In this document: one piece after another, positions 4,227 to 31,611 of the stretch | Layout: every line of letters starts with the position of its first letter | How positions within the stretch are numbered: the stretch's first letter is position 1 | Assembly (NCBI GenBank): GCA_030649955.1 | Contig: JAUSFD010000025.1 | Location: 1 to 64,000 of the forward strand | Direction of reading: 5' to 3' | DNA length: 64,000 nucleotides | Origin: Candidatus Peregrinibacteria bacterium | GTDB taxonomy: Bacteria > Patescibacteriota > Gracilibacteria > Peribacterales > Peribacteraceae | Notes under the pieces: generated by a model | Database searches by the model: none | What the model saw: only the letters and a program-made list of their open reading frames with translations | What the model was told of the DNA's origin: nothing | Translations under genes and position numbers: made by a program

Positions 4227-4254
4227 TTGACCCCTTATGCTAAGGGTGTACATT
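4227..4254 (+). promoter_or_regulatory. promoter with operator-like inverted repeat, antirepressor gene
   Basis: TTGACC (4227-4232) and TACATT (4249-4254) are 16 nt apart. Between them CCCTTA (4232-4237) and TAAGGG (4241-4246) form a perfect 6-bp inverted repeat with a 3-nt centre, placed where a bound regulator would block polymerase. The start codon lies only 9 nt after the -10, so the mRNA should have almost no leader. Confidence 0.55.
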
Positions 4255-4263
4255 CATTCACCT

Positions 4264-5112
4264 ATGAATAGCACTCCACCCCCACCAGTCCGCATCGCGA
4301 TCTTTCGCAGCAAGGAGATTCGTAAAATATTGCATAAAAATGAATGGTGGTTCTCGATCATCGATGTGATAGGTGCACTAATAGATAACGAACGAGCGCG
4401 AAAATACTGGAACGATCTCAAGCGTAAGTTAACAGAGGAAGGATATTCCGAGGTGTCCGATAAAATCGGACAACTGAAACTCCCTGCATCTGACGGAAAA
4501 AGTTACCTCACAGATTGTGCAAGTACGGAGACTCTCTTCCGCATCATCCAGTCCATCCCGTCCCGGAAGGCCGAACCCTTCAAGCGATGGCTCGCCAAGG
4601 TCGGCTATGAGCGTGTGCAGGAAATCGAAGATCCTGAATTGGCGACCAAACGCACCCGTGCTCTCTACAAAGCCAAAGGCTATCCCGATGGCTGGATCGA
4701 GAAACGCATGCGCGGCATTGCCGTGCGTGAACAACTCACGGGTGAATGGCAGAAACGAGATGTGAAAGAAGGGATCGAGTACGCCATCTTGACCGCAGAA
4801 ATCTCCAAGGCAACGTTCGGGATTACTCCCGCCGAGTACAAAACGAAGAAGAAATTGAAACGCGAGAACCTCCGTGATCACATGAATGACCTGGAACTCA
4901 TTTTCACGATGCTCGGCGAAGCGGCAACGACGGAGATCACGCAGAAGAAGGATGCGCGGGGATTCGGTCAGAACCGTGATACAGCGCGGAAAGGCGGGAA
5001 GATCGCGGGAGACGCGCGCAAGAAATTGGAATTGGAGAGTGGAAAGCCGGTCATTTCAAAGGAGAACTACCTCGACCTTCCAAGGAAGGAAGAGCTGCCG
5101 GAACTTCCGTAG
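4264..5112 (+). CDS. BRO-N domain protein, phage antirepressor / DinD-like family
   Basis: A 282-residue protein with an N-terminal BRO-type DNA-binding domain (about residues 10-110; WWFSIIDVIGALID, RKYWNDLKRKL, then TLFRIIQSIPSRKAEPFKRWLA). The C-terminal domain (KGIEYAILTAEISKATFGITPAEYK, then LRENLRDHMNDLELIFTMLGEAAT) is that of the widespread DinD/antirepressor family. Family members are phage antirepressors or damage-inducible proteins of uncertain role. The ATG at 4264 is preferred over an in-frame one at 4237, because the latter lies inside the promoter's inverted repeat. The gene is AT-richer than its neighbours and ends 10 nt from the 3' end of a tRNA gene, which suggests acquisition with a mobile element; no integrase is nearby. 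Confidence 0.85.
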   Translation: MNSTPPPPVRIAIFRSKEIRKILHKNEWWFSIIDVIGALIDNERARKYWNDLKRKLTEEGYSEVSDKIGQLKLPASDGKSYLTDCASTETLFRIIQSIPSRKAEPFKRWLAKVGYERVQEIEDPELATKRTRALYKAKGYPDGWIEKRMRGIAVREQLTGEWQKRDVKEGIEYAILTAEISKATFGITPAEYKTKKKLKRENLRDHMNDLELIFTMLGEAATTEITQKKDARGFGQNRDTARKGGKIAGDARKKLELESGKPVISKENYLDLPRKEELPELP

Positions 5113-11065: not shown

Positions 11066-11743
11066 TCAGACAAACACACTCGCCACGGCAGCGAAAGCGC
11101 GCAGCACCGTCTCCATGATCCAGAAAATCCAGACGGAGAGGAGAGGAAAATGCACGAGGCGCTCAGCGAGGAGGAGGACGAGGAGAATCATCGGGCCGCG
11201 ACGCATGAGCTCGTCGTATTGGTCATCCCACTGGAGCGGAACGAAGGGGTGGATGATCTTCGAGCCATCGAGCGGGGCGATGGGCAAGAGGTTGAAGGCC
11301 ATGAGTCCCAGGTTGAGGAAGAGCGAGCTCCCCGCGAACTGGCGGAGGAACTGGATCGAGACTGCTCCGGACTTCGGCTGACTGAGCAGGCTCTCCGCGA
11401 AGCCATCGACTGGTCCGTGGGAGAGTGCGACGAGGATTGCGAACGCGATGCACGCGAGAATGAGATTACTCAATGGACCTGCGAGCGCCGTGAGGGCTGT
11501 GTCCCTCTTCGGGTGCTGGAAGTAGCGCGGATCCACGGGCACGGGCTTGCCCCACCCGAAGCCAACGGTGACGAAGAGGATGGTGCCGAGCATATCCAAG
11601 TGCGCGAGCGGATTGAGGGTGAGCCGTCCCGCGTACTTCGCGGTCGGGTCCCCCAGCTGGTACGCCATGAAGCCGTGCGCCCACTCGTGGACGCTCAAGG
11701 CGAGGAGAATGCTCAAAATGTAGGTGGGTTCGAGGAAGTTCAT
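11066..11743 (-). CDS. M50 family site-2-type membrane metalloprotease
   Basis: A 225-residue polytopic protease of the compact SpoIVFB/S2P-like group, which cuts substrates inside the membrane. The zinc motif HEWAH is at residues 19-23, within the first helix (ILLALSVHEWAHGFMAYQLG), and the third ligand lies in NLLPIAPLDGSKI (Asp about residue 159). GDPTAKYAGRLTLNPLAHLD is the conserved loop after the first helix. No PDZ domain is present. It is commonly annotated as a peptidase of unknown substrate. It is divergently oriented from rpmB, with a gggaaca-word palindrome at the junction. Confidence 0.93.
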   Translation of the reverse strand: MNFLEPTYILSILLALSVHEWAHGFMAYQLGDPTAKYAGRLTLNPLAHLDMLGTILFVTVGFGWGKPVPVDPRYFQHPKRDTALTALAGPLSNLILACIAFAILVALSHGPVDGFAESLLSQPKSGAVSIQFLRQFAGSSLFLNLGLMAFNLLPIAPLDGSKIIHPFVPLQWDDQYDELMRRGPMILLVLLLAERLVHFPLLSVWIFWIMETVLRAFAAVASVFV

Positions 11744-11859: not shown

Positions 11860-12069
11860 ATGTCACGCGAATGCGCTAAAACCGGTAGGAAAACGAGCTT
11901 CGGGAACACCCGCAGCCACTCGCTGCGGCACACCCGCCGGACGTGGAGACCCAACATCCAGAAGAAGCGCGTGTTCGATCCTGCGACGGGAACATTCAAA
12001 ACGATGAGGGTAACGGCGGCGTACTTGAGGACGCTCTCGAAGAGGTTGCAGGCTGGGAAGAGGGCGTGA
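11860..12069 (+). CDS. rpmB: 50S ribosomal protein L28
   Basis: A 69-residue L28, the usual size. Family signatures are [23 protein letters not shown] near the N-terminus, [12 protein letters not shown] in the middle, and [11 protein letters not shown] near the C-terminus. It is a late-assembling large-subunit protein. The gene stands alone rather than with rpmG, as is common in reduced genomes. No Shine-Dalgarno precedes the ATG. Confidence 0.95.
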
Positions 12070-12126: not shown

Positions 12127-13677
12127 TCACGGTTTGAACAAGGGTAGGCGAGTGCTCATTTCGATGAAGCGCATTGGTTGGCCTTTGCGAATAGAGATGA
12201 TGCCTCTATTGCTAGCATTTTCAGCGAGTACAAGGCGCCCTTCGCTGTCACCTGCTTTCCAGAATAGAACACTCCTCTGCTTCTCCAGTGCATAGCGAGC
12301 TCCCTTCAACCTGATGATATCGTTGGGGTCAGCCGCTAGCTCGCGGAGAGTGGTCTTTTCCCATTTCAACATTTCGATGGGGTGATCGAGAGTAAGGTCG
12401 AACCCTCCATCGAGTGTCTGCGTCGCCACTGGTGCACCCCCTCGCGCTCGTTGAACGGCTAGGGGATTTACTGTGACAGTCTGTATATTCTTCACACGCA
12501 TCGCATAGTGATCGAGAGGAGATGGCTGCAGAGCTTTCTGATGCACATCAATTCGTCTCTCTTCCTCCATTTCTGTATCGGTCGTCTTGCGCTGACTCTT
12601 CTTCCATTCTGCGCTCTGTAAATTCCCGTTCGGGGCGATGAGCATTGTTTCGACCGGAGTCATCCCTTTCTTCGATGTATCTTCGAGGATGATGGCGATG
12701 CCCATTTCACGCTTCTCCACAATCACGCGCCTAGTCTCAGCATTAACCTTGCTCATAGCCCCCTCTGGAAAATCTTTGTCCGAGTGCTTTCGAAATTGCA
12801 TGTATCCATCCTTGGCCCAGAATATGCCTCTTTTCTCTAGTTCCGCAGGAGTAACACCTTTCAAAACAACATCACATTGAAATCCGGGGACTGTGTCTTT
12901 TTGCTGCGTAGACTCGGCTGGCTTGGGGAGATCCTTTCGGCCCAACTGCCGCATGTAGAGTTCATAGCGCAGCATCATCGCCAGTCGCTTCTGCCACCCT
13001 GGAAAATGGAGCCACACGACGCCGTCACGAATGTGCAGACTCTTTTCTTCTGGATCATGCAGAATAGCAATACCATGCCTCTCGGCGTCTCTACAGAGCT
13101 GTTGGAACTCCTTCGGGATCAATACTCCTTCGGGCAATTCAACATCTTTCTTGGTCTTCACATCGCGGATCTCCAGCAATGTTGCTAACTCAACGCCGTT
13201 CTTCTGCTCTCCGTCGTTCCTTGCCTCTACATCCTCGACTGTTCCATCTCGTATACCCTGTGGAAGGGTAAATGTCCTGCTCCCGTCTCCATAGTATTCT
13301 TTCACGATGGATAGCTCATCACCTGTGCGTTTGAACATGACCTTCTCATCTTCCAGACTGATGGTTGCGAGCTGCATTTTGTGTCGCTTCACCTCATGCC
13401 ATGTGCCCCGGTCGATGATGACAATGCCATACTTTTCCTGCAGCTCCTGAAGAGTCAGCCCATCATGGAGTTCGATTGCGTACAGTTTTTGAGTCTTTCC
13501 GGTTTCCACGTTTTTCACAGCATTTTTCTGCTTCGATCCATCTGATGCAAGGACTCCCCCCACAGAATGCTGAATAGTAGCAACTACAGCCAATGCAGCA
13601 GATAGACTCAAGAATTCGCGACGGGAAGACCCCGCTCCTGCCTCGCGTCTTTCGTCCAGTCCGTGTTCTGTATTCAT
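12127..13677 (-). CDS. Tat-exported hypothetical protein
   Basis: A 516-residue protein of unknown function. The N-terminus has a twin-arginine signal, SSRREFLSLSAALAVVATI, so it should cross the membrane folded via Tat, implying cofactor binding or rapid folding. The mature part has repeated similar segments: LQELQEKYGIVIIDRGTWHEV, EFQQLCRDAERHGIAILHDPEE, LEKRGIFWAKDGYMQF, and VEKREMGIAIILEDTS. Each is a short helix, a hydrophobic strand of the GIxIxxD type and a turn, suggesting a degenerate tandem-repeat fold. The ATG at 13677 is chosen because the signal peptide begins soon after. No catalytic motif is recognised. Confidence 0.75.
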   Translation of the reverse strand: MNTEHGLDERREAGAGSSRREFLSLSAALAVVATIQHSVGGVLASDGSKQKNAVKNVETGKTQKLYAIELHDGLTLQELQEKYGIVIIDRGTWHEVKRHKMQLATISLEDEKVMFKRTGDELSIVKEYYGDGSRTFTLPQGIRDGTVEDVEARNDGEQKNGVELATLLEIRDVKTKKDVELPEGVLIPKEFQQLCRDAERHGIAILHDPEEKSLHIRDGVVWLHFPGWQKRLAMMLRYELYMRQLGRKDLPKPAESTQQKDTVPGFQCDVVLKGVTPAELEKRGIFWAKDGYMQFRKHSDKDFPEGAMSKVNAETRRVIVEKREMGIAIILEDTSKKGMTPVETMLIAPNGNLQSAEWKKSQRKTTDTEMEEERRIDVHQKALQPSPLDHYAMRVKNIQTVTVNPLAVQRARGGAPVATQTLDGGFDLTLDHPIEMLKWEKTTLRELAADPNDIIRLKGARYALEKQRSVLFWKAGDSEGRLVLAENASNRGIISIRKGQPMRFIEMSTRLPLFKP

Positions 13678-13831
13678 AGTGGTGATTGGATAGCTTGAAT
13701 CCAGGGAAAGAACAGTATCTTCCTCTCTCCTCATGCGTGGGGCAAGTTCTTCCTTTTTTGGCTAGCCCATACCAAAACTTCAGATACAATTCCTGCATTT
13801 TCCGCTGAGAAGATTAGGATGCAAGCTCCAT

Positions 13832-15208
13832 TCAATCAGCAACATCTTTCCTCCGTTCCTTTACCTCTCCTCTCTTCCGCTTGTCTTGAAGTATCTTCGC
13901 CTTTGCCTTCCTCGAACGCCTCTGCTTCTGCTTCGCGATGCGGTGCTGCTCCTGACCACGGGCGGAATCATCACCCTTCACTTTCTCCTCAATCTTCTCG
14001 AGGAGGAGCTTGTACGCGGCGATGCGATTGCGGCTCTGCTCACGTTGATCCTGCACACGGACATTCACGTTGAGCGGAGCGTAGTGGAGCTCGACACAAC
14101 TCGATGTTTTGTTGATCTTCTGACCGCCGTGCCCGGAGCCACGGACGAAGTGCTCCTCGATATCCGCTGCAGAAATCTTCAGCTCACGCGCGATCGTGAG
14201 GTACTTCTCCGAGAGTTCTACCGGGAAGTGGAATGACGGCGCGTGCACGGGCTTCGGGAGATCGTGCGCGGTGAACTTCGCGGTAAGCGCGTGGACGAGC
14301 GAGATCTGGTAATGGAGGTAGTAGTCACGATTCTCCATGGATTCCATCTTGTGGAACAGGAGGACATCGAAGAGTCCGGCGATCAGCAAATACTCGGAAA
14401 AGAGTGATTGTGCATCTTGATGCACGCCGTACCATTCGAGAATCTGGCGGTACTCGTCCTCCGGGAACATGAATGCTTCAGTGTCGTAGGAACGGAGGCA
14501 CATCATCGCGAGGTACGCGAGGTCCTCGTACGGATGCCCAATCCGACACCAGTCACAGTCGATGATACCGACTGTCTCTCCCGCATCATCGACGAGGAGA
14601 TTGCCGTGGTGGAAGTCACCGTGGACGAAGCAGAGCTCGCCCTGCTGGACACTGCGGATGTGCTGTTCAACGCGCGTAAATGCGAGGGCGAGGCGCTGCT
14701 GCGCGTGCGGGGAGAGCAGATGTCCCAGAGCGTTGAGTCCGTTCTGCATCTCCGTAAGAAATGGCAAACGCTCATCGAAGAACGTGTGGAGCTTGCCCTT
14801 CGTCGCATCGTGCATGCTCCGCATCGCGGCGCAGACGGTCTTCGTCTCTGCATCCGCTGCAGACGCAACCTGCTCCCACGAATCGAGGATGTGTCCGGGA
14901 ATACGTGCGTACATCGTCCACAGCACACCCTCCTCTACGATGTACGGATGCCCCTCGTGCGTCTCGATGGGGAGCGGCAAACGCAGACTTGTGAGCGCAC
15001 TCGCCGCGCGGATGAGCGACGTCTGCTCACGGAAGGTGTCGATCACCTTGGGGGTACTGGGCTTTCCGCGCAGCACGTGTGCGCCATCGAGGATGTACAC
15101 CGCAGAGAGCACAGCGTGCTCGGCAGGCACGATCGCCTTCGCCTCGATACCGAACCGGCGCGCGAGACCGCGGAGGAAATTCAGGGGATAGGCGTCCCTC
15201 AGAGGCAT
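13832..15208 (-). CDS. APH/choline-kinase-like phosphotransferase fused to a GGQ release-factor domain
   Basis: A 458-residue two-domain protein in a single uninterrupted frame. Residues about 1-320 are an aminoglycoside-phosphotransferase-like kinase with Brenner motif FVHGDFHHGNLLV (about 194-206) and metal-binding IIDCDWCRIGHPYEDLA (about 215-231). Residues about 340-458 are a class I release-factor catalytic domain: EEHFVRGSGHGGQKINKTSS with GGQ at about 361-363, NVRVQDQREQSRNR, and a very basic tail (KQKQRRSRKAKAK), as in ArfB/C12orf65 ribosome-rescue hydrolases. Such factors release peptide from stalled ribosomes without decoding a stop. A kinase partner is unusual; its substrate is unknown. 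The start at 15208 is chosen over 15250 by homology. Confidence 0.88.
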   Translation of the reverse strand: MPLRDAYPLNFLRGLARRFGIEAKAIVPAEHAVLSAVYILDGAHVLRGKPSTPKVIDTFREQTSLIRAASALTSLRLPLPIETHEGHPYIVEEGVLWTMYARIPGHILDSWEQVASAADAETKTVCAAMRSMHDATKGKLHTFFDERLPFLTEMQNGLNALGHLLSPHAQQRLALAFTRVEQHIRSVQQGELCFVHGDFHHGNLLVDDAGETVGIIDCDWCRIGHPYEDLAYLAMMCLRSYDTEAFMFPEDEYRQILEWYGVHQDAQSLFSEYLLIAGLFDVLLFHKMESMENRDYYLHYQISLVHALTAKFTAHDLPKPVHAPSFHFPVELSEKYLTIARELKISAADIEEHFVRGSGHGGQKINKTSSCVELHYAPLNVNVRVQDQREQSRNRIAAYKLLLEKIEEKVKGDDSARGQEQHRIAKQKQRRSRKAKAKILQDKRKRGEVKERRKDVAD

Positions 15209-15299
15209 AGTGCGGGGTGAGTGTTCTTTTGCAGTATACAGGATGTGCATTTGCTCGTCTCTGGGGAAGTCCGAAGAGACTGAAGATACGGACGAATAA

Positions 15300-16279: not shown

Positions 16280-16654
16280 TTACGCTGTGACGACCCTCTT
16301 GTTCGTGAAGGCAGAAGCGAGTGCCCACAGACCCACGACGAGGTGAATAACATTGTCGACGGGGTTATCCAGTTGTACGAGACCGTAGTAGTTGAGCGGA
16401 GGATCCCCAGCGACCATGAAGCCGGCGACGCCGAAGTAGAGGGCAACGAGACCAACGAGCACCACCACCCACTTCTTGAGATCACCCAAGGGGAGTGGGG
16501 CGAGCACGAGCGCCACGATACCGAGCACGAGGTGCGCGATGTTCTCGTACGGGCTGAAGCTCAGTAGCGTGCCGATCTCCGGGACGAGGTACCCGAGGAT
16601 ACCGAGGGCGAGGAGGACCACGCCTCCAATCTGCAAGAAGGACTTCGGATTCAT
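16280..16654 (-). CDS. DUF4383-like small membrane protein
   Basis: A 124-residue protein with four transmembrane helices: LQIGGVVLLALGILGYLV, IAHLVLGIVALVLAPL, WVVVLVGLVALYFGVAGF and VIHLVVGLWALASAF. The repeated (N/D)(I/V)xHLVxGxxAL pattern is that of the DUF4383 family, whose function is not known. The ATG at 16654 is chosen because the preceding in-frame residues are polar and unrelated. The C-terminus is short and basic. Confidence 0.75.
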   Translation of the reverse strand: MNPKSFLQIGGVVLLALGILGYLVPEIGTLLSFSPYENIAHLVLGIVALVLAPLPLGDLKKWVVVLVGLVALYFGVAGFMVAGDPPLNYYGLVQLDNPVDNVIHLVVGLWALASAFTNKRVVTA

Positions 16655-16791
16655 GGGGTGGGAGGGAAGGGATAGATTTAAGCGAGCATACGCCCAATCA
16701 GAGCTGTTTTGAGCGGGATTCCATTGACTGGAAAGGAAAGTTGTCACGTAGGCTTATATGGCCCGAAACCATGGAAAGAAGTGGGAATTTT

Positions 16792-16823: not shown

Positions 16824-19800
16824 ATGGCCCTCTTCGGTAATTTATTCGGGAAAGGGAAAGCAGAGGATGACAAAGCTGCTGCGAAGAAGACGCCAGCAAA
16901 TAAGGGGGCATTGGAAAAGAGGCAGCAGGCAGAGACAGCGCCCCTGCAATTGGAGCTGAAGCAGGTCTTCACTACCAAGGAAGCTCTATACAATATCACA
17001 AAGCCACTGGGAGTCGACCACTTGAATGTAGAGGGACGGAATTACGTTATCGCTGCAATGAATGATCAACTATGCATCTTTGGTATGGATGGAAAATGCA
17101 TACGTGATTTGGACAAGGACGATAGGAGTTCAGGAGAAGCGGTTGTGGCCTGGCGTGCTATTTGTACCGCTCTAGGAAAACGAGGACTGCAGAGAGGAGA
17201 GAGTACTCCTCAGTTCATTGGTACTGACGATCTCCCCTTCTACATGCAGGAGGATGCAAAACAAGCCATAGGGACCTACAGGAACACATTTCTCGAGCAG
17301 TTGTCGAAAGACTACGTAAGACATGAGATGAAGAAGGCAACGCTCTCCGTGATTCTCAATGGCAAGTACATACTGCTCTGGGATCCTCAAGAACGTGCAT
17401 TCGTCGCATGGCAAACAGAACTCGATGGTCGCCCCCAACTCCCTCGGAATTGGATCCGCTACTCCACCGCAACAGCAACGGGCGTACCGGAAGACCTCAC
17501 CGAACACCTCAGAGGACTATTTGCCTCCGCAGAGAAGTACAAGGATTGTAAACGAGTGAACGATACGTACGTCGCTGTCATTGATAACAATAGAGGTATT
17601 GGATTTGTGCGGGATGACGATAGAGCGAACATTGTGTACCCGGATGCGCTCCCCGGAATCCGGGAGAACTTCGTCGTAGACCCGAACGACGATCAGACGG
17701 TGTTCTACTGCCAGCACGAAAAACCCACCGACATCTACGAACTCAACGTGAGCGGAGATCCGACGAAATGGGAAGCGCGTCTCATTCACCTCCCAGAAAC
17801 GAAGTCGTACTCGAAGATAGAAAAACTCAATATCCACCCGAGCGGGAAATTCTTCGATTGCTGGGCCCTCCAGACAATAATGGTCATGCGGAAAGATGAG
17901 TACTCAGGGGAGGAGAAGAGAGTGAGAGAGAACCACATGGGCATTGTCCACATCGACCGCCAGACGGGCGCAGAGTTACCGAGCCCGTTCATTGGCGTCT
18001 CATCGCACAGGTATAACGACGGGGGGGAGTTATGCGGCCTCCAGAATGGGAATGTGCCCGTGGTGTATCAGACAAACCTCGGAACAATCGCAAAGGAGCA
18101 GCAACGCCAGCAAGCAGCGAAGAAAGCGAGCACCATCGACATCGAAACACTCATGGATAGCGACACAAGTACAAAAGGACCGGGAAAGGAGGATGAGCCA
18201 CAGGAAGACACGACCGTCTACAACCGGCAACGCGCACAATGTGATGAAAAATTCCTTGGAGCGATACAGCAAGCGACAACTCCTGAACAATTGGAGCAGA
18301 AGGTCATTGGTCCACTTAATAGAGTTCGCACCGGTCTCCGCGATCGGAAACGGCTGAGTCCTGCTGCCGTACGCTACATCACAGAGACCGTCGATGCAGC
18401 ACTACAAAAGAAGAACCAGGAGCTTGCTAGTGCGACGGCAACAACGCTCATCGGGCAGATTCGTACACAGCTCGGCGAGAGGAATCTCCCGCTGAATCGA
18501 CTCGAAGCCATCCAAGCAGATGTGAAAGCAGCACAGAATCTTCCCAATCTTCCCGAGCCGTTGTCGCAGACAATCGGCGAACTCACGCAGCTATTCGAAG
18601 GACGCCTGGCCGAAGCGATGAATAGAGATGCAGTCGAAATAGAAAGGGAAGTCCGAGCAGAAATTGACCGTGAACGTCAGCGGGCGAGCACATTCCATAG
18701 CTTGCCTCAGGTCACGCAGTGGCTGCGCGAAACGATCCCCACGCTCCAGAGCAAGTACGTCGAGCAGCAGGGTCGGTGCCTTCCCGGTAGTCCCGTCTTC
18801 GGTGTGTACCAGCGTGCGCAGGAGACACTACGAGAGCTCGGAGCTGCGACGCGGAAGAAGTTTGAGCAGAACTACGACAAGCTCCGCGAGCAGGCGAGGA
18901 GTCAGCTCTCTGCGACGATTACCTCTGTTGGGCTCAACATCGATGAATGCTTCGCTACGCTGAGACTGGCAGCATTTCCCTCGCGAGAAGCAGCGGAGAA
19001 CGCCATCGACACAGGCGCTGACTACCGGCAACTCGAGCAGCAGATCCAGATCATTGAAGAGCAAGATCGAGAGGAAGCGAGAACACTCCGAGACAAGCTC
19101 CACGCCGGCCGGGCACGATTCATAGGAGAAGTGGAACGGAAGCTTGCCGCTGTGACAGACGATCAGGGGAAGAGAGTGTACAGATTTGGATCCATATCAT
19201 TCCCCATCTACGAAGCAGCCACGAAGAAAGTGGGTGCGAAGCAGACCGCAATCACTTTCATTCCCAGTGGAGGGGGAGGTGCCTCACCAGGCGAGACGCA
19301 GGGCAGCATTGTAGTGCGCGTGGAGACGGGCCGAGGGAAGAAAATCGACGTGATCCCGTGGGAGCAGAAGCTCGACGCAGAGAACTTCCAAACCGGAGTG
19401 ACCACCTACCGGGGAGTGGAGGACGGGAAGGGGGGGAAAGACAGACTGATCGCCCCATCGACGATGATGCAAGCGGAGTACTCGAAGATCCGCAAGCTCT
19501 ACCAGCGCTGGCAATCTGGGGAGCTCAAGCGCGAGTGGCAGAGCAGACGTGCAACGCTCATGCAGCTGTACCTCGGCAAACCGCGCTTCGATGCGCGCAT
19601 GCAGGCACGGGGCGAGCAAATCGAAGCTGTACCTGGCACGGGACGAGAACTGCCTGGCGGGAAGAACTTCACGGCAAGCCGTCAGCCACGCGGGAAAGCG
19701 GATAAGACCTGGCAGGGACAGTACAAGAAGCTCCTCGGAGAGTACGCGGACTTCTGCCAGCAGAATGCTATTCCCCTCCTGCGCGAGCTCGAGAGGATCG

Positions 19801-20894
19801 AACACGCTCCGGAGTCGGAGTACGCCAACGGCGTGGGCTTCGTCCCGAAGTGGAAGGATGAGTGGGTGGTCGCACCGGAAGATGAGGAAGTACTCGGCGA
19901 GATGGCGAGGCAGTTCAGCTTCCAGCTCGAGAAGCAGTGCGGACTCCTAGATCTCAAAGGGCCGCCGGGCACTGGCAAGGACGTCTACCTCCAGATCTTC
20001 GCCGAGCGCACGAAGCGACCGCTCTTTTCGCACGACTGCTCGAAGACGGACTCCGAGGGCGAACTCGTCGAGGACATCTTCTTTGAGGCGGAGGGCGGCG
20101 CGACCCGCACGGTGTTCGTCCCGTCGAAAATCCTCCAGGGCATCCAGACACCTGGGGCTATCATCTACATGAACGAGTTCAACCTGCTCCCGGAAGACAC
20201 GCAAAAGTTCCTCAATTCCCTCTTCGATTCCAAGCGGAGCCTCACCCTCAAGACGAAGTCCGGCCGCGTGATCAAGTCGCAGCCCGATGTGCTCTTCACG
20301 TGCTCACAGAACCCCAGCGAGGGGAAGCAATCACACCCCTCCGTGCTAAGCCGCATGGTGCACATCGAGGTGGATTACCCACCGCTCTACGGGAAGAAGA
20401 AGCCGGGCGATACGCGCAGTTCTCCTCCATTTTCCCCATCCGAGCCACTGAAGATTGCGCGCATGATGCGGGGATTCAAGGACTCTACTCTCGAGGAGAA
20501 TATGGAGAAAAACCCCTTCGTGAAGCACTGGGATTTCTACGCGAACGGCATCGGCGAGGATCCGAATCTTCCGCAGGCACAGCAGTTCGACATGCAAGTG
20601 ACCCTCTGTTTGGTCCAGCTGGGGAATTACCTACGCACGGAGTTCAAGAAGCACACGATCGAGGACGACGACAGCGCTGTCCCCGTGGCACTTCCCGTCA
20701 CTCTCCGCGAGATGCAGAGCTGCGGCACAGAACTGGGGAGTATCCCTGTGGAGGAGAAAACGAGAGCTGGAGCTGATCCAGAGAAGCTTGCAAAGTTGCT
20801 CATGCGCCGCTACTTCCTCATGCACTTCCAGCCCAAAGAACGTCAGCCGATCGAGGATGCCGTGCGGAGCTGGAGCATGCAGAAGCGCACGTGA
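16824..20894 (+). CDS. giant MoxR/dynein-like AAA+ ATPase
   Basis: A 1356-residue cytoplasmic protein. Residues about 50-410 are beta-rich and propeller-like (LWDPQERAFVAWQTELDG; IEKLNIHPSGKFFDCWAL). A charged linker precedes a long helical region at about 470-790 (DREEARTLRDKLHAGRARFI). A basic region follows at about 840-1000. The AAA+ module occupies about 1010-1250, with Walker A GPPGTGKD at 1046-1053, sensor-1 FTCSQNPSE and arginine-finger-like SVLSRM. The Walker B reads YMNEFN, with Asn1117 in place of the usual Asp before Glu1118. MoxR-like ATPases act with VWA proteins to remodel or mature clients, and such a partner starts 4 nt downstream. N-terminal assignments are tentative. Confidence 0.85.
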   Translation: MALFGNLFGKGKAEDDKAAAKKTPANKGALEKRQQAETAPLQLELKQVFTTKEALYNITKPLGVDHLNVEGRNYVIAAMNDQLCIFGMDGKCIRDLDKDDRSSGEAVVAWRAICTALGKRGLQRGESTPQFIGTDDLPFYMQEDAKQAIGTYRNTFLEQLSKDYVRHEMKKATLSVILNGKYILLWDPQERAFVAWQTELDGRPQLPRNWIRYSTATATGVPEDLTEHLRGLFASAEKYKDCKRVNDTYVAVIDNNRGIGFVRDDDRANIVYPDALPGIRENFVVDPNDDQTVFYCQHEKPTDIYELNVSGDPTKWEARLIHLPETKSYSKIEKLNIHPSGKFFDCWALQTIMVMRKDEYSGEEKRVRENHMGIVHIDRQTGAELPSPFIGVSSHRYNDGGELCGLQNGNVPVVYQTNLGTIAKEQQRQQAAKKASTIDIETLMDSDTSTKGPGKEDEPQEDTTVYNRQRAQCDEKFLGAIQQATTPEQLEQKVIGPLNRVRTGLRDRKRLSPAAVRYITETVDAALQKKNQELASATATTLIGQIRTQLGERNLPLNRLEAIQADVKAAQNLPNLPEPLSQTIGELTQLFEGRLAEAMNRDAVEIEREVRAEIDRERQRASTFHSLPQVTQWLRETIPTLQSKYVEQQGRCLPGSPVFGVYQRAQETLRELGAATRKKFEQNYDKLREQARSQLSATITSVGLNIDECFATLRLAAFPSREAAENAIDTGADYRQLEQQIQIIEEQDREEARTLRDKLHAGRARFIGEVERKLAAVTDDQGKRVYRFGSISFPIYEAATKKVGAKQTAITFIPSGGGGASPGETQGSIVVRVETGRGKKIDVIPWEQKLDAENFQTGVTTYRGVEDGKGGKDRLIAPSTMMQAEYSKIRKLYQRWQSGELKREWQSRRATLMQLYLGKPRFDARMQARGEQIEAVPGTGRELPGGKNFTASRQPRGKADKTWQGQYKKLLGEYADFCQQNAIPLLRELERIEHAPESEYANGVGFVPKWKDEWVVAPEDEEVLGEMARQFSFQLEKQCGLLDLKGPPGTGKDVYLQIFAERTKRPLFSHDCSKTDSEGELVEDIFFEAEGGATRTVFVPSKILQGIQTPGAIIYMNEFNLLPEDTQKFLNSLFDSKRSLTLKTKSGRVIKSQPDVLFTCSQNPSEGKQSHPSVLSRMVHIEVDYPPLYGKKKPGDTRSSPPFSPSEPLKIARMMRGFKDSTLEENMEKNPFVKHWDFYANGIGEDPNLPQAQQFDMQVTLCLVQLGNYLRTEFKKHTIEDDDSAVPVALPVTLREMQSCGTELGSIPVEEKTRAGADPEKLAKLLMRRYFLMHFQPKERQPIEDAVRSWSMQKRT

Positions 20895-27416: not shown

Positions 27417-27506
<90 letters not shown>

Positions 27507-28534: not shown

Positions 28535-30925
28535 ATGAAGATCTCCCTGAACTGGCTCTCGGACTTCGTCGAGCTCACGGAGCGCGATCCCAAGGTGATT
28601 GCGGACCGCGTGACCGAGGGGACGGCGGAGGTGGATGAGGTGACCGTGCAGGGGGAGCTCTTGGAGAAGTGCGTGGTCGGGAAAGTCCTCTCTGTGACCA
28701 AGCATCCGCAGGCGGACAGGCTCTCGCTGTGCGAGGTGATGACGGATAAAGGGAAGAAGCGCGTCGTCTGCGGAGGAACAAATCTCCGCGTCGGCATGCG
28801 CGTTGCGTTCGCGCACGTGGGTGCGCGCGTGCGCTGGCACGGCACGGAGATAACGACCCTCGAGAAGACGAAGATCCGCAGCGAGGAGAGCGAGGGGATG
28901 ATCTGCGCTGCGGAGGAACTCGATCTCTCCACCCAGTTCCCAGAATCGAAGGAGCGCGTGATCATCGACATGGGCGATGGGGATGCGGATGTGGGGAAGC
29001 CCCTCAAGCGAGTGCTCGGACTCGATGACGTCGTCCTGCACATCGACAACCATGCCATCACACAGCGCCCAGACCTGTTCTCGCATGTCGGCTTCGCGCG
29101 GGAGTTCGTGGCCCTAGGCCTCGCGAGGTGGCGTAAGCAGCCGCTCAAGAAGCGTCCCATTTTCTCGAAGGCTGCCATGCCCTTCGCATTCAAGAATGAC
29201 ATCCCGACCCTCGTCCCGCGGTACGCGTCGTGCATCATCCAGATCGACAGTGCGGGGAAGACACCGGAGTGGATGGAGCGACGACTCACGGCAACGGGGT
29301 GGCGGCTCGTGAATCTCCCCGTCGACATCACGAACTACGTCGCAATGGAGACGGGCATGCCACTCCACAGCTTCGATGCAGATGATCTGAAGGGAACCGT
29401 CCACATCTGCCAATCGAAGAAGGGGGAGAAAATCACAACCCTCGATGAGGTCGCGCGCCCACTGCCGGACGGCGCGATCGTGCTCAGTGATGATGAGGGA
29501 ATCTTCGACCTCATGGGCATCATGGGGGGACTCCGGAGTTCGACGAAGGCGACGACAAAGCGGATCTACCTGCACTCAACGATCGTGGATCCCGTCTCTA
29601 TCCGCCGCGCGATCATTGCTACAGGCCACCGCACGGATGCCGCAACGGTGTACGAGAAGGGCATTCCTAGAGTCACCTGCATGCTGGGATTCACTCGCGC
29701 ACTGGAGCTCATCCTTGAGCTCGTCCCCGGGGCGCGCATCGTATCGAAGATGGAGGAGTGGGGTGACGACGGGAAGGGGAAGCCGATTGCAGTTAGTGTT
29801 GCGCGTGCACAGCGGACACTGGGTGAAGATATTCCCGCGAAGACGATGACACGCATCCTCACGGACCTGGGATGCACAGTGAAGTCCGCAGGATCAAAGG
29901 CAAAGGGCACGACGCTCACCGTCACTCCTCCCCTCTTCCGCTTGGGAGACATGCGCGGGGAGCACGACGTGATCGAGGAAATCGGGCGCATCTACGGCTA
30001 CAACACGATTGCCGTCACCATGCCTGCTGCGTCCATCGATCCGCAGCCACGGGATAAGCGGGTGCACTGGATGCGCGAATACCTCAAGGAGGAAGGCTAC
30101 ACAGAGATCCTCCCGCTCTCCCTTGTTGGAGCTTCACTCCTCCGGAAGGCGGAGCTGGATCCCGCGGAAGCGATTGCGATCCAGAACCCCATTGGAGAGG
30201 AAGAGAGTCTCTTCCAAACATCGACGCTTCCGCGATTACTCGAGCATGCGCAGAGAAATCTCCTCACAGCAGACGGTGAATTGAAGACATTCCTCTGGGG
30301 TCATGTGCTGCGCGCAGGGGGCATCGAGCACACAGAGATGAGCATGCTGCTCTGGTGCAGGGAGGAGAAGGATCTCAAGAGTGCAGCCCTCCTGACCTTG
30401 AAGGAGAATCTCCTCTACGCGCTCTCGCCTCTGGGACTCAGCGTGTCCGTGACGCATAGGAAAGACGCGCCACTCTTCGCTCACCCAGGGCGCGACGCGG
30501 ACATCCGCGTCGAGGGCGTCACGATGGGCCAGCTCTACGAACTGCATCCCAAGATCGCGCAGCGCTTTGATCTCCTGGGACGCGCGGCGATCGCAACGAT
30601 CGATCTGGATTCGCTCTTCTCCCTCCCAGTGAAGACGAAGGTCGTCTCTCCTCTGCCCCTCTTCCCTGCGGTCACGTACGACATCACCGCCCGCATGGCG
30701 CACGCCAAAGCCATCGACTCGCTCCTGAAGAAACTGGAGTCCAGCCACGAGCTCCTGGAAAAGGCGCAGATTGCAGATCTCTACGCCGGGACAGGGATGG
30801 AGAAGGGGAAGTACAACGTGACGATCCGCTGCACGTACCGGTCACCGGAGCGCACGCTCCGGGAGGATGAAGCGCAAGCGGCACATAAGACTGTGGAGGA
30901 GTTGGTGACGGAGTACGCGAAGTAA
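28535..30925 (+). CDS. pheT: phenylalanyl-tRNA synthetase beta subunit
   Basis: A 796-residue PheT of normal length. With PheS it charges tRNA-Phe as an alpha2-beta2 enzyme. An N-terminal MKISLNWLSDFVEL is followed by the EMAP-like tRNA-binding domain with KHPQADRLSLCEV (about 57-70), the B3/B4 editing region (NHAITQRPDLFSHVGFAREF; VDITNYVAMETGMPLHSFD), the B5 domain with GDMRGEHDVIEEIGRIYGYN, and a C-terminal ferredoxin-fold anticodon-binding domain ending TVRCTYRSPERTLR-like. pheS is not next to it, so the subunits are transcribed apart. The ATG is backed by a -10 box 6 nt upstream. Confidence 0.96.
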   Translation: MKISLNWLSDFVELTERDPKVIADRVTEGTAEVDEVTVQGELLEKCVVGKVLSVTKHPQADRLSLCEVMTDKGKKRVVCGGTNLRVGMRVAFAHVGARVRWHGTEITTLEKTKIRSEESEGMICAAEELDLSTQFPESKERVIIDMGDGDADVGKPLKRVLGLDDVVLHIDNHAITQRPDLFSHVGFAREFVALGLARWRKQPLKKRPIFSKAAMPFAFKNDIPTLVPRYASCIIQIDSAGKTPEWMERRLTATGWRLVNLPVDITNYVAMETGMPLHSFDADDLKGTVHICQSKKGEKITTLDEVARPLPDGAIVLSDDEGIFDLMGIMGGLRSSTKATTKRIYLHSTIVDPVSIRRAIIATGHRTDAATVYEKGIPRVTCMLGFTRALELILELVPGARIVSKMEEWGDDGKGKPIAVSVARAQRTLGEDIPAKTMTRILTDLGCTVKSAGSKAKGTTLTVTPPLFRLGDMRGEHDVIEEIGRIYGYNTIAVTMPAASIDPQPRDKRVHWMREYLKEEGYTEILPLSLVGASLLRKAELDPAEAIAIQNPIGEEESLFQTSTLPRLLEHAQRNLLTADGELKTFLWGHVLRAGGIEHTEMSMLLWCREEKDLKSAALLTLKENLLYALSPLGLSVSVTHRKDAPLFAHPGRDADIRVEGVTMGQLYELHPKIAQRFDLLGRAAIATIDLDSLFSLPVKTKVVSPLPLFPAVTYDITARMAHAKAIDSLLKKLESSHELLEKAQIADLYAGTGMEKGKYNVTIRCTYRSPERTLREDEAQAAHKTVEELVTEYAK

Positions 30926-31071: not shown

Positions 31072-31611
31072 ATGGGTATCGTCACCAAAACCGGCGACAA
31101 AGGAACCACTGGCCTTTATGGCGGGAAGCGCGTGTCGAAGGGCTCCGTGCGCCTCCACGCCTACGGCTCGGTGGATGAACTCAACGCAATCCTGGGAGTC
31201 ATCCTCGCAGAGGAGGGATTGAGTGAGAATCTCCGCGATCAACTGATCGAGACACAGAGATTCCTCTTCCGCGTCGGTGCCGATCTCGCAACACCGGAAG
31301 TCGACAATGCAGCGAAGGTGAAGCGCATCGAAGCAGCGGATACAGAGCGCGTGGAGAAATGGATTGCGATCCTCGAACTCACCCTCCCCCCGCTCACGCG
31401 CTTCATCCTCCCCAGCGGCTCGCGCGCAGGATCGCTCCTCCATCAAGCGCGCACCGTCTGCAGGCGAGCCGAGCGATGGGTAGCAACTCTCGGGGAGCAG
31501 GAGCAAGTGAACGGGGAGCTCCTCATCTGCCTGAATCGATTGAGCGATTACCTCTTCCTCGCCGCGCGTGCGGCGAATAGGGCAGCAGGGGCGGAGGAGA
31601 TGGAGGTCTAA
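31072..31611 (+). CDS. PduO-type ATP:cob(I)alamin adenosyltransferase
   Basis: A 179-residue enzyme that transfers the adenosyl group of ATP to cob(I)alamin, making coenzyme B12. The N-terminal nucleotide loop TKTGDKGTTGLYGGKRVSK is diagnostic. YGSVDELNAILG, the central FRVGADLATP, the ILPSGSRAGSLLHQARTVCRRAER signature (the Arg and Glu of RRAER bind ATP) and the C-terminal NRLSDYLFLAARAANR follow. No B12 synthesis gene or B12-dependent enzyme is in the window. A cell without the corrin pathway would use salvaged cobalamin, perhaps for a class II ribonucleotide reductase elsewhere. Confidence 0.94.
   Translation: MGIVTKTGDKGTTGLYGGKRVSKGSVRLHAYGSVDELNAILGVILAEEGLSENLRDQLIETQRFLFRVGADLATPEVDNAAKVKRIEAADTERVEKWIAILELTLPPLTRFILPSGSRAGSLLHQARTVCRRAERWVATLGEQEQVNGELLICLNRLSDYLFLAARAANRAAGAEEMEV

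Follow-up and report, generated by a model that had tools for sequence, protein, structure and literature searches.

A 64,000-nucleotide stretch of DNA from Candidatus Peregrinibacteria bacterium (contig JAUSFD010000025.1, here called the window) carries a gene at 13832..15250 (-) whose single reading frame encodes an APH-type kinase followed by a GGQ ribosome-rescue domain. From the first ATG the product has 472 aa; the stop codon is at 13832-13834, and a homologue lies at L036:7941-9365. The APH-type kinase region (14255..15208 (-), residues about 15-332; Pfam APH) is joined by the short linker KPVHAPSFH (14228..14254 (-)) to a C12orf65-like RF-PH (GGQ) domain with a basic helical tail (13835..14233 (-), residues 340-472; Pfam RF-1). 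No stop codon separates the two domains, and the linker has no ATG and a single in-frame GTG (residue 335). In Pfam searches, PF01636 (APH) matched residues 59-253 (E 6.7e-22, 78.9 bits vs. a cut-off of 23.2) and PF00472 (RF-1) matched residues 356-467 (E 6.9e-20, 71.6 bits vs. a cut-off of 35). An alternative start is the ATG at 15206-15208 (-) (residue 15), which gives a product of 458 aa. It is likely the better start, because the only full-length homologue, from genome G031, aligns from residue 15 of the window protein (MPLRDAYPL / MPKSFPL).

The kinase half has a Brenner loop, HGDFHHGN (residues 210-217), a metal aspartate in IDCD (230-233), and GHPYEDL (238-244). GGQ is at residues 375-377 and is conserved in the G031 homologue. 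GSGHGGQKINKTSS and GHGGQKINKTSS are likewise present. The GGQ half has a Lys/Arg-rich tail (32 K+R in 134 aa), and in the kinase half acidic residues outnumber basic ones (42 D+E to 29 K+R in 333 aa). The two halves agree in GC content by codon position (0.65/0.38/0.76 and 0.63/0.36/0.70), so the fused frame is coding throughout and reads as one gene. An earlier note, made from the sequence, had described one uninterrupted frame at 13832-15208, with the ATG at residue 15 as its start, joining a kinase with intact Brenner and metal motifs to a GGQ domain with a basic tail. The ORF, the Pfam matches and the G031 homologue confirm the single frame, and all of these motifs are found in the sequence.

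Several neighbouring genes mark the chromosomal position of the fused gene. An S2P-type (site-2 protease-like) gene, named from its sequence rather than from a family search, lies at 11075..11740 (-); its counterpart next to the fusion in G031 has 60% identity. The bL28 gene (11860..12069 (+); Pfam PF00830, E 1.5e-21, and synteny) is on the strand opposite the GGQ gene. The other flank has a DUF4383 membrane protein gene (16280..16747 (-)), tRNA-Ser(GGA) (27417..27506 (-)), pheT (28535..30925 (+)), and, in the slot order of the window, a cobalamin adenosyltransferase gene at 31072. About 12 kb of other genes intervene between the fusion and tRNA-Ser.

A same-strand gene for a 535-aa protein (12127-13734 (-)) lies between bL28 and the fused gene, beginning 97 bp downstream of the latter. 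The N-terminus of this protein is twin-arginine-like (SRREFLSLSAAL). It has no Pfam match, and the related slots that were compared contain no homologue of it. A promoter and terminator scan gave signals at or below shuffle expectation. A 1356-aa protein is encoded at 16824-20894 (+); its C-terminal part is an AAA_5 (dynein-related) ATPase domain, and the rest of it is without a Pfam match.

Conservation and origin of the fusion

A search of 96 related genomes found one full-length homologue of the fused protein. It is encoded in Candidatus Peribacteria RIFCSPHIGHO2_01_FULL_51_35 (G031; contig MFXP01000004.1), which was assembled independently of the window's genome (G000) and belongs to a separate genus of the same family. 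The homologue is 46% identical over residues 26-470, without a stop, in an open frame of 493 codons. Because the same two-domain protein occurs at 46% identity in a second genus, the fusion is not a chance product. The kinase was also searched for in 74 genomes of the family, 353 of the class, and 380 drawn from the phylum. In all three sets, family-level matches were confined to the window's genome and G031 (two of the 353 class genomes) and were fused both times; the remaining matches were few and were weak, generic APH matches.

In the relatives' loci that were read out, the C12orf65-type GGQ gene stands alone and encodes about 135-150 aa. A stand-alone GGQ gene in all other relatives examined is what an assembly, stop-loss or annotation error merging two separate genes might leave behind. 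However, the identical architecture occurs in another genus and a separate assembly, homology and coding composition are continuous through the junction, and no relative examined in the family and class genome searches has a kinase gene adjoining its GGQ gene. Adjacent split genes in close relatives, which the earlier note had named as the sign of an artefact, were looked for and are absent; the nearest homologue, assembled independently, is itself a fusion. An artefact is thus effectively refuted, and the fusion is genuine, inherited, and conserved in two genera.

The only separate member of this kinase family found is a partial stand-alone protein, 35% identical, in Patescibacteria CP_BM_ER_67 (L037). 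It stops at the boundary of the fused kinase domain and mostly shares the catalytic motifs of the fused kinase, and no GGQ gene follows it. The kinase family therefore also occurs as a free protein. The gene after this kinase is unrelated to the 535-aa gene of the window.

The GGQ gene of the relatives occupies a conserved chromosomal slot. Their common gene order, with variations, is tRNA-Thr, S2P-type protease, bL28, GGQ gene, tRNA-Ser, pheT, and cobalamin adenosyltransferase (compared in L090, L091, L092, L093, L094, and L101), with the GGQ gene antisense to bL28. The fused gene is in the GGQ position of this slot in both the window and G031, where the order is pheT, tRNA-Ser, fusion, bL28, S2P. 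An rpoB tree groups G000, G031, G013, and G023 in a single clade (support 100/99). The GGQ gene is absent from the slot in G013 and G023 (L097, L098), and both have a stand-alone GGQ gene at another locus (L087, L086). In G023, which is without the fused gene, the DUF4383 gene directly follows bL28. The simplest account is a single in-place fusion in the ancestor of the clade, followed by loss or replacement in two genera. The GGQ tree groups the two fused domains with 59% support only, and the fusion could alternatively have been transferred between the two fused lineages.

Other features of the GGQ loci were observed. Among 30 GGQ loci, six have a tRNA gene no more than about 1.5 kb away from the GGQ gene, and all six are tRNA-Ser, with GGA or CGA anticodons (L002, L003, L012, L013, L015, and L030), so that rescue gene and tRNA-Ser are associated in a conserved way. 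In several relatives a full-size release factor gene (prfA/prfB type) shares the strand of the stand-alone GGQ gene and lies about 3-4 kb from it (L092 in G011, L093 in G020, L094 in G045, and L101 in G016). A Bro-N (PF02498) gene at 4237-5112 (+) of the window is 86% identical to L090:7902-8780 (genome G029), and in both genomes it adjoins tRNA-Thr and the S2P gene. The housekeeping genes near it are only about 52-77% identical between the window and G029, and the Bro-N gene looks like a recently moved element.

Class and constraint of the GGQ half

The best PDB match of the GGQ half is human C12orf65 (7a5h; E 2.1e-16 over 111 residues, tail included). Matches to RF1/RF2 (E about 1e-8) and to ArfB (E about 1e-4, short, GGQ part only) are weaker. 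According to the release-factor survey of Burroughs and Aravind (2019; PMC6514570), an alpha-i segment divides ArfB class 1/ICT1 from C12orf65 and classical ArfB. This segment is missing between the last two core strands of the GGQ half, and the alignment to human C12orf65 is nearly gapless there. Pfam found no PCRF (codon-recognition) domain in the fused protein, and a long C-terminal helix is predicted in its otherwise poor AlphaFold model. Scores were below the NCBIfam cut-offs for ArfB (NF006718; 50 bits vs. 100), the RF1/RF2 families (49-55 bits vs. 370-423), and PrfH (40 bits vs. 166.65).

By sequence criteria (GGQ, no alpha-i, no codon-recognition domain, basic tail), the GGQ half is an RF-PH domain of the C12orf65/classical ArfB type. 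Identity with E. coli-type ArfB was rejected in favor of this class on the sub-cut-off score, the lack of alpha-i, and the PDB ranking. The earlier note had called the domain C12orf65/ArfB-like; this holds for C12orf65 and "classical ArfB," and the PDB matches do not extend it to the E. coli-ArfB type. Among known factors, mtRF-R/C12orf65 likewise has a GGQ RF-PH domain without alpha-i or a codon-recognition domain and with a basic helical C-terminal tail, but it has no kinase. ArfB/YaeJ and ICT1 (ArfB class 1) share the codon-independent GGQ rescue domain and basic tail, but their alpha-i segment is missing from the fused protein. PrfH (with RtcB) is similar in being a GGQ factor for which a link with another enzymatic activity has been suggested; it differs in having a codon-recognition-like domain and in that its partner, RtcB, is a separate protein.

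Alignment of 28 stand-alone GGQ homologues gives 31 near-invariant positions, and both fusions keep every one of them. The fused pair's GGQ domains are 64% identical at 87% rpoB identity, and eight comparable genome pairs have a mean of 64% (sd 11). The fused domain thus diverges at the stand-alone rate, which indicates ordinary constraint and argues for retained function. Some RF-PH relatives have become non-catalytic, such as MRPS35 (PMC6514570), and by this precedent the GGQ half could be hydrolytically dead and serve only to target the kinase to ribosomes. Such a role is highly improbable given that neither fusion has lost GGQ or any near-invariant position, that the domain changes at a stand-alone rate, and that no other short C12orf65-type GGQ copy was seen in G000 or G031. 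On its conserved residues, the GGQ half probably retains peptidyl-tRNA hydrolysis.

Rescue by this domain can be viewed against the other rescue systems of these bacteria. All 14 Peribacteria-like genomes tested, including G000 and G031, have tmRNA and SmpB. The NFACT-N (RqcH) domain was found in none of 14 Peribacteria-like genomes, and the same search was positive in 11 of 14 control genomes; this family therefore appears to be without canonical bacterial RQC. Since tmRNA/SmpB is present and RqcH was not detected, the GGQ factor is probably a backup to trans-translation. Human mtRF-R works together with MTRES1, and its substrate is the split large subunit bearing peptidyl-tRNA (PMC8786322); by analogy the bacterial GGQ factor may act on split large subunits in place of RqcH. 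mtRF-R gave no in vitro release on 70S or 55S ribosomes (PMC8786322), which makes any exact target assigned to the GGQ half provisional.

Family and possible substrates of the kinase half

The kinase half is a member of the PF01636 superfamily, having a profile score above cut-off, the Brenner motif HGD....N, and the metal aspartate. Its catalytic motifs are intact in both fusions, and the motif regions are largely invariant between the window and G031. No NCBIfam kinase subfamily cut-off was reached, and scores were far below all of them; the best score to an antibiotic phosphotransferase was for APH(3') (36 bits vs. a cut-off of 205), with APH(2''), Mph, and Cph lower. The top NCBIfam-level matches differ between the two fusions, being APH(3') for the window kinase and homoserine kinase/CcrZ for the G031 kinase, and the weak matches include Bud32 and other translation-related kinases. 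PDB profile matches were to bifunctional AAC/APH(2''), APH(3'), capreomycin, and macrolide kinases (E 1e-4 to 1e-2). Reference libraries are full of antibiotic kinases, and because of this bias the matches name a fold class, not a substrate. On profile comparison, the homology of the kinase is too generic to name its substrate. The tRNA, nascent-chain, antibiotic or ribosomal targets put forward in the earlier note, and its link between rescue and the kinase, are conjectural on this evidence.

Structure prediction gave similar information. Two AlphaFold models were poor (mean pLDDT 58 and 54, from alignments of 4-5 rows), and Foldseek on the first model placed APH(2'')-IIIa/Ia and N-acetylhexosamine kinase at the top (TM 0.3-0.5). 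For such a model, this ranking confirms little beyond the kinase fold class. The kinase half shares its fold, HGD....N, and ID.D with APH/choline-kinase-like proteins (PF01636: APH(3'), APH(2''), capreomycin/macrolide phosphotransferases, CotS, homoserine kinase, and CcrZ), but the fused protein bears a release-factor domain and fits no subfamily. The bifunctional AAC(6')-Ie/APH(2'')-Ia, to which there are weak profile and fold matches, is a precedent for an APH domain joined to a second enzymatic domain, although its partner is an acetyltransferase and not a ribosome factor.

Mobile elements were considered as a source. Plasmid or phage origin was rejected: the fused protein has no plasmid match, and the one phage record that matched did so over 58 residues of the GGQ part only. 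A scan of viral contigs found one distant kinase domain (L039), fused to what is inferred to be a nucleotidyltransferase-like domain. An anti-phage defence system was also rejected, as neither the fused protein nor two of its neighbours had a PADLOC match.

The two halves evolve at different rates: between the window and G031 the kinase half is 40% identical, vs. 66% for the GGQ half. The much faster divergence of the kinase speaks for a chance union, in which an unrelated small-molecule or metabolic kinase was joined to a rescue factor and both halves work but are uncoupled. The stand-alone kinase of L037, which ends at the domain boundary away from any GGQ gene, points the same way, as does the loss or original absence of the kinase in the sister genera. 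Against this, two genera retain the fusion in frame, with proteins 46% identical and with the gene in the GGQ gene's own slot, and no separate GGQ copy was seen in either fused genome. We regard a chance union as somewhat unlikely, but as an explanation to be taken seriously.

Another candidate substrate is a component of translation. The kinase could modify the nascent chain, a ribosomal protein, rRNA, or the tRNA released with the peptide; rescue would then mark or repair the stalled complex, much as RtcB has been proposed to repair RNA for PrfH. RF-PH factors have been argued to be coupled to RNA repair, and a fusion of a C12orf65-like domain to an MJ1316 RNA-end-binding domain has been published (PMC6514570); the weak matches to Bud32 and other translation-related kinases are also consistent with such a target. 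However, the kinase has no specific similarity to any RNA or protein kinase, its acidic composition does not favour RNA binding, and no RNA-repair gene is among the immediate neighbours examined. We therefore consider action on a translation component improbable.

A proposed link between ribosome rescue and phosphorylation

We propose that the fused protein is a backup rescue peptidyl-tRNA hydrolase combined with a competent ribosome-tethered kinase whose substrate is most likely a small molecule directed at the ribosome, and we give this proposal roughly an even chance. It builds directly on the fusion, its conservation, its slot, the intact motifs, and the normal constraint on GGQ. An ORF for an APH-fold kinase would have been joined upstream of a stand-alone C12orf65-like rescue gene in the ancestor of a small Peribacteria-like clade. 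The GGQ domain, most likely still working, would be a codon-independent peptidyl-tRNA hydrolase. Its basic helix would dock onto a ribosome that has stalled, or onto a large subunit after splitting; GGQ would then enter the peptidyl-transferase centre and free the chain, as a backup to tmRNA/SmpB. The kinase, kept at ribosomes by the GGQ half, would be catalytically active with ATP or GTP and would phosphorylate a hydroxyl on a ribosome-located target, for which an antibiotic-type small ribosome-binding molecule is our first guess. Both activities, the tethering, the substrate, and the coupling are what we infer. The lack of the kinase in the sister genera counts against the proposal, as do the sub-cut-off and discordant kinase matches, the poor models, and the absence of in vitro release by mtRF-R. 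A stronger version, in which peptide release is coupled to phosphorylating the stalling drug ("clear and disarm") or the released tRNA or chain ("clear and mark"), is speculative and in our judgment unlikely.

Couplings of RF-PH factors to other activities have been surveyed. The survey by Burroughs and Aravind describes PrfH with RtcB, C12orf65-like domains with MJ1316, and ArfB with a pseudouridine synthase gene, and the words "kinase," "phosphotransferase," and "APH" are absent from its main text (PMC6514570). The earlier note knew of no described system with this fusion, and our literature search agrees: the open-licence full-text papers searched hold no description of an APH or phosphotransferase family joined to a GGQ/RF-1 rescue domain, although one may exist elsewhere. 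The fusion is apparently undescribed, and both halves are of known kinds.

C12orf65-type factors are poorly understood in bacteria, and the fusion is a "Rosetta stone" hint to what they respond to. It suggests a rescue factor that also carries out chemical modification where ribosomes stall, and it comes from bacteria whose genomes are reduced and gave no RqcH match. Were the two activities coupled, this would be a new link of ribosome rescue to drug inactivation or to the marking of RNA or protein, and a one-protein system that both clears and disarms or marks, if true, is not known elsewhere. Even if the activities are uncoupled, a C12orf65-type rescue gene is documented as conserved beside bL28 in Peribacteria-like bacteria.
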